NCBI RefSeq assembly: GCF_000016525.1
Contig: NC_009515.1
Location: 584,501-648,500, forward strand
DNA length: 64,000 nt
From: Methanobrevibacter smithii ATCC 35061
Lineage (GTDB): Archaea > Methanobacteriota > Methanobacteria > Methanobacteriales > Methanobacteriaceae
Direction of reading: 5' to 3'
A program made the translations under genes and the position numbers. Every line of letters begins with the position of its first letter. The stretch's first letter is position 1. Of the stretch, positions 57,489 through 59,340 are shown in pieces. The notes below the pieces were generated by a model, which saw only the letters and a program-made list of their open reading frames with translations, had not been told where the DNA came from and did no database searches.

Positions 57489-57514
57489 AATAAGGAGTAT
57501 TAAAACTCCTTATT
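57489..57514 (-). terminator. Probable hairpin terminator of the 120-aa gene
   Basis: AATAAGGAGT/ACTCCTTATT, a 10-bp stem with a 6-nt loop that includes the stop codon; only a short T-run follows on the minus strand. Confidence 0.6.
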
Positions 57515-57872
57515 CCATACTAGGCAAATATTTCTGGTCTGAAGCATAGCTGGACCCGATTAATTTTCCGCTAGACGTATTGTACTGTCTAAAACCACCA
57601 TCAGAATAAGTTACTTCACGATAATAGCTGCCGTCATCTGCCTGATAATTATATTTTACCACTTCACTTACAACATAAACTCCTGAATTCGGCTTAGTGT
57701 TGTCACTTGTGTTTGCAGTTGTATTATTGGTTAGATTTTCAGCAGTGCAGTTAGTAGACACAGTATCGTCTTCATCATCATGGATATCATCAGCAAAAGC
57801 AATTGCAAATGCTATAATGCATGCCCCGACAATAATTGCACAGATTATTATAATCAAATCTTTAGATTCCAT
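57510..57872 (-). CDS. Small membrane-anchored extracellular protein (120 aa)
   Basis: N-terminal transmembrane helix (about 5-24), an acidic DDIHDDEDD stretch, then a Thr/Asn-rich linker with several N-x-T sequons and a C-terminal Tyr-rich beta region (EVVKYNYQADDGSYYREVTY). Start set at 57870-57872 because GGAGGTTG precedes it. Begins 30 bases after the 3' end of tRNA-Thr. Not recognised as a named family. Confidence 0.7.
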   Translation of the reverse strand: MESKDLIIIICAIIVGACIIAFAIAFADDIHDDEDDTVSTNCTAENLTNNTTANTSDNTKPNSGVYVVSEVVKYNYQADDGSYYREVTYSDGGFRQYNTSSGKLIGSSYASDQKYLPSME

Positions 57873-57901
57873 TAAAGCAACCTCCAATTGATTTTTTAAA
57901 A

Positions 57902-57974
57902 AGCCCACATGGGGAATCGAACCCCAGACCTATTGATTACGAGTCAATCGTTCTACCTTCTGAACTATATAGGC
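57902..57974 (-). tRNA. tRNA-Thr (CGT)
   Basis: Acceptor GCCTATA/TGTGGGC (two G-U pairs), D stem GTTC/GAAC, anticodon arm ATTGA-CTCGTAA-TCAAT with anticodon at 57939-57941, T arm TGGGG/CCCCA, discriminator T (U73, seen in other archaeal tRNA-Thr). Its first ten bases are also the last codons and stop of the upstream CDS. Confidence 0.95.
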
Positions 57975-58318
57975 TTAACTATTATATTTGTAATTAAGTA
58001 ATATACAAACATTCCTATAAAATAACACACAACATCCCACCAGTCAGAAACACTTCCAGGTCTTAAAAAAATAGCTATGTACTCACCTAAAAAAGATAGA
58101 AATATTGTAATTAAAGTCAGATATTTTAAGGATGTCACCTGCATATTTGACCTGTATAATGAAATGCTGTTTATTAAAGCGAAAAATAATGGCACAGCCA
58201 GCAGATCATTGAGATAATTATTGAAAAATGGAATTCCCAAATTCTTCAAAACCAGCTGATTCAAGCCATAAACAGCTAATACAACAACCAATATTACAAT
58301 ATTTGTTTTATTTTCCAT
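57965..58318 (-). CDS. Four-helix membrane protein overlapping tRNA-Thr
   Basis: 117 residues with four hydrophobic helices and short loops (RPGSVSDWWDVVCY between the third and fourth); possibly a VanZ-like or DUF-type protein, but I do not recognise the family. Its last codons AAG CCT ATA TAG overlap the 5' ten bases of tRNA-Thr. It starts one base after the stop of a 22-codon ORF. Confidence 0.72.
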   Translation of the reverse strand: MENKTNIVILVVVLAVYGLNQLVLKNLGIPFFNNYLNDLLAVPLFFALINSISLYRSNMQVTSLKYLTLITIFLSFLGEYIAIFLRPGSVSDWWDVVCYFIGMFVYYLITNIIVKPI

Positions 58319-58319
58319 A

Positions 58320-58388
58320 TTATCCGCAAATAGAAAATATTACCAGTGCAATAAGCACTCCCAAAACAATAGTACATAAGTCTTCCAT
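58320..58388 (-). CDS. 22-residue hydrophobic peptide, leaderless start
   Basis: ATG at 58386-58388, TAA at 58320-58322. The peptide starts MEDLCTIVLGVLIALV and forms one hydrophobic helix ending in CG. A TATA box lies about 25 bases before the ATG and there is no Shine-Dalgarno, so the mRNA would begin at the ATG. Its stop is one base from the start of the 117-residue gene (TAATATG), implying coupling. Could be a real micro-membrane protein or a leader ORF. Confidence 0.55.
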   Translation of the reverse strand: MEDLCTIVLGVLIALVIFSICG

Positions 58389-58410
58389 AATAATAATATC
58401 GTGACTACCA

Positions 58411-58420
58411 TATATAAAAC
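58411..58420 (-). promoter_or_regulatory. TATA box of the 22-codon ORF/tRNA-Thr cluster
   Basis: Minus strand GTTTTATATA, 25 bases before the 22-codon ATG. Confidence 0.6.
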
Positions 58421-58445: not shown

Positions 58446-58769
58446 TCAGCTATTCATGAAATTGTAGTGATCAATATATCTTTGTAAAACTTCCTCAACA
58501 GGACCTTCATCACTAACCAGCTTAATTCCTGCATCCTCTGCCTTAATTTTGGATTTGAATCCGTATTTTGTAGAAATTATAACATCACAGTCATTGCATT
58601 CTTGAATAACATCACCGCCCTGATGTTTGGCGTCCTTATCAATAGCCAATTTTCTTGTTTCAACAAAATCAAAGTCATTGTCAACTACATCATAAATAAC
58701 TAATGATACTGCTTTTCCTAAATGCAAATCAACAATATCTCCATTGGAAGATGCAAGTGCAATTCTCAT
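58446..58769 (-). CDS. NifX/NafY-like dinitrogenase-cofactor-domain protein
   Basis: 107 residues of the small RNase-H-like fold that binds Fe-Mo cofactor or Fe-S precursors: MRIALASSNGDIVDLHLGKA, then ECNDCDVIISTKYG. Start set at ATG 58767-58769, one base after the stop of the flavoprotein gene. No nitrogenase genes are near; stand-alone members exist in non-fixing archaea with unknown role. Confidence 0.85.
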   Translation of the reverse strand: MRIALASSNGDIVDLHLGKAVSLVIYDVVDNDFDFVETRKLAIDKDAKHQGGDVIQECNDCDVIISTKYGFKSKIKAEDAGIKLVSDEGPVEEVLQRYIDHYNFMNS

Positions 58770-58770
58770 T

Positions 58771-59340
58771 TTAATCAACTAATTTTTTAATTATATTGGC
58801 AACATTCTGACCAAATAACTTAATAGTGGCTATTCCTTCACTGTCATCTAAAGCTGTACCTTCAGGACCTGCAAATACCATGTTCCAGTAAGTACTTCCG
58901 GCTATTATCATATTGTTAATCGGGAAAAACATTGTCATTTCCTGTAAGGTTAAAGTCTGTCCTCCACGCCTTGCAACAGCAATCGGACCTCCAACCATCC
59001 ATTCTAAAAATTTGTCGTTTCCTCTTGAAACTTTACCTATCCTTTGAAGAGCAGCCATTATGTCTCCTCTTGCAGTTCCAAAGTAAACTGGTGCTGCAGG
59101 AATAAATCCGTCAGCCTGTCTGATTTTTTCAATGATTTCATCCAAACCGTCATTTAAAACACAATTTCCTGTTTTTGCACATCCGTTACATGCAACACAT
59201 GACTGTATCTGTTTTCCTCTTAAGGATATGATTTCAGCTTCAACACCATTTTTCTCAATTTCTTCAGCACAAACTTCCAGAACATCCTGAGTGTTACTGT
59301 TAGCTCGAGGACTGGAATTTAATAATATAACTTTTGCCAT
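58771..59340 (-). CDS. Flavodoxin-fold iron-sulfur flavoprotein / NADPH-dependent FMN reductase family
   Basis: 189 residues. LLNSSPRANSNTQDVLEV is the phosphate loop for FMN; CVACNGCAKTGNC (about 48-60) is the compact cysteine motif of archaeal Isf, which holds a 4Fe-4S cluster; FIPAAPVYFGTARG contacts the isoalloxazine. Probably an electron-transfer or O2/peroxide-reducing protein. Tightly coupled to the NifX-like gene. Confidence 0.88.
   Translation of the reverse strand: MAKVILLNSSPRANSNTQDVLEVCAEEIEKNGVEAEIISLRGKQIQSCVACNGCAKTGNCVLNDGLDEIIEKIRQADGFIPAAPVYFGTARGDIMAALQRIGKVSRGNDKFLEWMVGGPIAVARRGGQTLTLQEMTMFFPINNMIIAGSTYWNMVFAGPEGTALDDSEGIATIKLFGQNVANIIKKLVD

Follow-up and report, generated by a model that had tools for sequence, protein, structure and literature searches.

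The closest described relative of the locus examined here is the Skillet-2 Lipocone two-gene system predicted by Burroughs, Nicastro and Aravind (eLife 2025; PMC12419801). Features of the Lipocone fold comprise an Asp in the second helix (H2), a Glu in the third (H3), and, in the fourth (H4), an Asp preceded by another Asp at a distance of three positions. Across the Skillet families, H3 'largely' carries an ExxQ motif, and a helical handle is located in the linker between H1 and H2. Lipocone proteins are predicted to act on the head groups of isoprenoid lipids, and the membrane versions are predicted to do so at the outer leaflet. In Skillet-2, the protein encoded upstream consists of either a cytoplasmic zinc ribbon and a helix or an HTH and a ClpS-like domain, and this zinc-ribbon/HTH partner has been proposed as a membrane-tethered signalling or transcription regulator. 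The VanZ and Skillet families are placed in one clade, with a previously reported fifth transmembrane (TM) helix beyond the core in VanZ. Methanobrevibacter is not mentioned in the main text of that study (PMC12419801).

The window, meaning the whole stretch of DNA that was analysed, spans 64,000 nucleotides of the genome of Methanobrevibacter smithii ATCC 35061, a single contig of 1,853,160 bases. Table 1 presents an overview of the features at positions 57510-58420. Like the Skillet-2 system, the locus combines a four-helix membrane protein, a probable Lipocone, with the gene of a single-TM protein directly upstream. A check of the sequence and its open reading frames (ORFs) confirmed every element and junction of the preliminary description; the gene order, the junctions, the TATA box and the stop codon within tRNA-Thr are all present.

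Table 1. Features of the locus, in the order in which they are read on the minus strand
Feature	Coordinates	Strand	Basis
TATA box TTTATATA	58411..58418	minus	sequence; box and spacing shared with sister genome G002
Micro-ORF, 22 codons, single TM helix, MEDLCTIVLGVLIALVIFSICG	58320..58388	minus	orthologues in G002, G098, G066 and G024; synonymous bias
ORF of the 117-aa four-helix membrane protein	57965..58318	minus	homologues; AlphaFold2 model; sub-threshold Pfam DUF2809/VanZ matches
TATA-like TTTGTATA within the 117-aa ORF, at -35 of tRNA-Thr	58002..58009	minus	7/8 match
tRNA-Thr(CGT)	57901..57974	minus	ARAGORN and Rfam model
120-aa protein, N-terminal membrane segment, NxT/NxS sequons	57510..57872	minus	genus-wide family

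By virtue of its spacing, the TATA box offers an indication of how the micro-ORF is expressed. Counted from the A of the micro-ORF ATG, TTTATATA begins 30 nt and ends 23 nt upstream, which fits a leaderless start; in the window genome (G000), the mRNA is therefore probably leaderless with its 5' end at or adjoining this ATG. In G000 and G002, a TATA box spaced for a leaderless start takes the place of a Shine-Dalgarno-like site, and such sites are found before the micro-ORF in G024 and G098 (AAGGAGTGAT and AAGAGGTG, respectively). The micro-ORF ends with TAA, followed by the single base 58319 and then by the ATG of the 117-aa ORF, ahead of which the Shine-Dalgarno signal is weak. Hydrophobic ORFs of 16-45 aa occur at the junction of just 7 of 429 ORFs of at least 100 aa, the micro-ORF pair included, in 464 kb of genome (background gene counts were drawn from sampled stretches).

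Close homologues of the 117-aa protein were identified at five further archaeal loci (G002, G066, G024, G098 and G037). In the first four of these genomes, a hydrophobic ORF of 22 or 23 codons ends 1-3 nt before the four-helix homologue; no peptide was found upstream of the homologue in G037, a member of the same clade. When 139 genomes of the family were searched with a profile of the five peptides, exactly five were recovered at E<=1.2e-11, the next best match being 0.004. In all five, the peptide is directly upstream of a four-helix homologue, and the search found no peptide without the membrane gene. The window and G002 have one genomic context in common, and those of G024, G066 and G098 differ.

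Between G000 and G098, the micro-ORFs show 17 differences over 66 nt; 12 of these fall at third positions, and 19 of 22 residues are kept. None of 20,000 neutral simulations reached this pattern, and for G066 the fraction was 0.0001; the close pair of G000 and G002 alone gave 0.07, which is not significant. A chance origin of the micro-ORF was ruled out by the rarity of the junction, the neutral simulations and the gap in the peptide profile. On the evidence of these sequence comparisons, the 22-residue membrane peptide is encoded by a real gene under protein-level selection. The earlier suggestion that the peptide could regulate the membrane protein or be one of its subunits is thus well supported, as the pair is conserved, selection acts at the protein level and no peptide was found without the membrane gene. 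At the G037 locus (L010, contig C99, 1492-1851), the partnerless four-helix homologue is located between divergent and convergent genes, and this locus could reveal whether the helix is dispensable.

Alternatively, the micro-ORF may serve as a regulatory upstream ORF whose translation controls ribosome access to the four-helix start, the peptide itself being irrelevant. Coupling of this kind would suit both the one-base junction and the weakness of the Shine-Dalgarno signal ahead of the second ATG. However, the codons drift while the amino acids stay conserved, and at more distant loci the position of the micro-ORF is taken by proteins of 50-120 aa that end in one TM helix, which argues that the product itself is kept. 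A purely regulatory role is considered very unlikely.

Turning to the membrane protein, an AlphaFold2 model based on 37 sequences (pLDDT 92.3, pTM 0.82) consists of helices at residues 2-22, 30-57, 64-85 and 93-113, with a short helix at 24-27 in the H1-H2 linker. Among the 37 sequences, E79, D92, D95 and Y99 are invariant and D38 is nearly so, with D92 and D95 forming a D92xxD95 motif. The protein therefore resembles the Skillet-2 Lipocone in its H2 Asp, H3 Glu, H4 DxxD and short H1-H2 linker helix. D38, E79, D92 and D95 are near helix ends expected on one side of the membrane, and the positions of Lys and Arg residues (N-terminus, loop 2-3 and C-terminus) suggest that this side faces outward. 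Unlike Skillet-2, H3 is without ExxQ: the window protein has EYIA, and no Q was present at +3 in the sequences inspected. The best Pfam match is DUF2809 (PF10990, Skillet-DUF2809), which is sub-threshold at 18.1 bits against a gathering score of 29.3; furthermore, the helical handle reported for the H3-H4 loop of that family is absent from the 117-aa model. VanZ (PF04892) also matches weakly, at 17.3 bits against a gathering score of 30.1, and while a fifth TM helix has been reported for VanZ, there it is covalently attached and here it would be a separate peptide. No significant fold relatives were detected in the PDB or in a viral structure library. Two other possibilities were set aside: a defence system, as PADLOC returned no match worth following (the best was a weak 0.0075 match of one bacterial partner), and plasmid carriage, as the bacterial homologue gave no plasmid match.

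Since the features match except for the H3 ExxQ and the cytoplasmic domain missing from the window's partner, the pair probably works like the Skillet-2 system and probably constitutes a variant of it. Very short single-TM peptides that act on a larger membrane protein are known in KdpF, CydX and AcrZ. The micro-ORF peptide is like them in size and topology; their large partners are unrelated to the four-helix protein, however, and no sequence relationship is claimed.

More distant homologues of the four-helix protein, in another archaeal genus, in Cytophagales and in a halomonad, likewise follow the gene of a small protein that ends in a single TM helix. Such a partner is present at 39 of 44 homologous loci, the window included, where 38 were called by script and one (L113) fell just under the hydropathy cut-off. 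The background obtained by the same test, run with a somewhat tighter end window (+20 instead of +60 nt), is 1-4%, at 11 of 307 genes in this genome and 4 of 310 Cytophagales genes; while many of the 44 loci are related and their counts are not independent, the contrast with the background is still large. The partners can be classified as TM-only (6 loci), acidic tail and TM (14, from one archaeal genus), zinc ribbon and TM (17, including L113 as judged by eye) and other TM (2), with none at the remaining 5. Partners with a zinc ribbon are found in Cytophagales, a halomonad, Brumimicrobium and the archaeon G135, that is, at 17 of 44 loci versus 0 of 617 background genes. No such partner was found at the weak VanZ-like matches of the same scan (L079, L117, L118 and L120-L123). 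Four long membrane ORFs with weak four-helix matches (L012, L016, L023 and L025) appear to be a different family. In one Bacteroidia genome (G139), two four-helix homologues (L070 and L078) each overlap the 3' end of a dGTPase-like gene and have no TM partner.

The zinc-ribbon partners of the bacterial relatives and of G135 correspond to the Skillet-2 arrangement, whereas the acidic tail and helix of the related archaeal genus and the bare 22-residue helix of the window and its clade, which has no cytoplasmic domain, depart from it. The likeness of the 22-residue helix to that of the zinc-ribbon partners is one of position and topology, rather than of demonstrable sequence homology. In the tree, the window protein belongs to a clade of six (support 97/93), five of which have TM-only partners. 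A second locus with a TM-only partner, L047, groups with the zinc-ribbon archaeon L046 (89/75), which suggests that the cytoplasmic part of the partner has probably changed more than once.

Another view is that the partner is a regulator of signalling or transcription, tethered to the membrane and coupled to the Lipocone, and that the short form is its decayed remnant. This view agrees with how the bacterial system has been interpreted (PMC12419801) and with the zinc ribbons of the Cytophagales partners. Yet L047 adds a second archaeal lineage with the TM-only form, and purifying selection acts on the 22-aa form. A peptide that has no cytoplasmic domain is in addition an unlikely DNA binder, and a decayed remnant should therefore not persist. 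This reading is considered unlikely.

With moderate confidence, the micro-ORF and the four-helix gene are instead proposed to form an operon for a Lipocone-fold, Skillet-like enzyme and its small helical subunit. One TATA promoter would drive the two-gene operon, with the micro-ORF as the first cistron followed by the four-helix gene, and we infer that translation of both cistrons is probably coupled through the one-base junction. The outer-face acidic residues of the Skillet-like enzyme would probably act on the phosphate-linked head groups of isoprenoid lipids. In turn, the helix of the peptide would pack on the four-helix cone in the manner of the fifth helix of VanZ, and may either stabilise the cone or gate lipid access. 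The same partner would carry a cytoplasmic zinc ribbon in bacteria and be a bare helix in the M. smithii lineage.

Because the variant described here keeps the helix alone with no cytoplasmic domain, the helix is suggested to be the essential part of the partner; its naturally missing cytoplasmic domain argues for the helix as the most important portion. A broader proposal, held tentatively and at slightly less than even confidence, is that the TM helix is the sole indispensable part of the Skillet-2 partner and acts as a detachable fifth helix in trans, with the zinc ribbon and acidic tail as replaceable add-ons. If these parts are replaceable, the system would be an enzyme with a helical subunit first and a signalling device second. 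A cytoplasmic domain, where it exists, may have a signalling role; the 22-residue helix could hardly have one. The locus reduces a predicted two-gene lipid system to a minimal pair, with members of 22 and 117 residues, that can be put to the test in what appears to be the chief methanogen of the human gut, and its conserved 22-codon gene is short enough to slip past normal annotation.

Downstream of the pair, the 5' end of tRNA-Thr is placed at 57975 by ARAGORN, while under the Rfam model G1 falls at 57974. The TAG stop codon of the 117-aa ORF (57967-57965) forms U8-A9-G10 of the tRNA, giving an overlap of 10 nt with the Rfam G1. RNase P would cut within codon 115 (AAG), and the cut message would therefore be without a stop codon. 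Among 30 tRNA loci examined in this genome (34 matches), tRNA-Thr is the only one within which a same-strand ORF of at least 60 aa terminates. This singular overlap and the close spacing are what would be expected if the micro-ORF, membrane gene, tRNA and secreted-protein gene were transcribed as one functional unit, with processing of the tRNA 5' end deciding the fate of the mRNA. That order, however, is limited to two sister genomes, the remaining parts are found apart elsewhere, and tRNA-Thr is preceded by its own TATA-like site, making such a unit highly improbable.

tRNA-Thr adjoins the pair only in G000 and the sister species genome G002, G024, G037 and G066 have no tRNA alongside their four-helix homologues, and the overlap falls in the variable C-terminal tail of the 117-aa protein. 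The site TTTGTATA agrees with the TATA consensus at all but one of its 8 positions, a level reached or exceeded by ~6.5% of random 35-mers. In several other tRNA genes of the genome, TTTATATA is located at -38 to -45, and the tRNA-Thr site at -35 is near this range; TTTGTATA is plausibly a separate tRNA-Thr promoter. The preliminary description had treated the four genes as one cluster and had tied tRNA maturation to mRNA fate. The tie is not supported as a functional feature, and the cluster as a single unit was rejected on the gene order across genomes. Conservation of the order, which it had named as a check, is seen for the micro-ORF and four-helix gene; the tRNA and secreted-protein gene accompany them only in G000 and G002. 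Judged by gene order, these two are incidental neighbours of the pair.

A GGAGG Shine-Dalgarno site precedes the gene for the 120-aa protein, which starts at 57872, 28 nt past the tRNA. The gene product has a hydrophobic N-terminal segment and several sequons, and gave no match to a Pfam family. The family is present in 60 of the 67 genomes of the genus, at times in multiple copies. Conservation is better in the C-terminal part of the protein; the linker, rich in Asn and Thr, is variable. None of eight other family loci scanned carries a tRNA. The loci that were read have different neighbours, such as purine-synthesis-like genes (named by sequence reading), and occur without the pair. As its neighbourhoods indicate, the 120-aa gene is a unit separate from the micro-ORF and four-helix gene. 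On the other side of the locus, upstream of the pair and also on the minus strand, positions 58446-59340 contain two ORFs with an 8-base overlap, one for a member of the Nitro_FeMo-Co family and the other for a member of the NADPH-dependent FMN reductase family.
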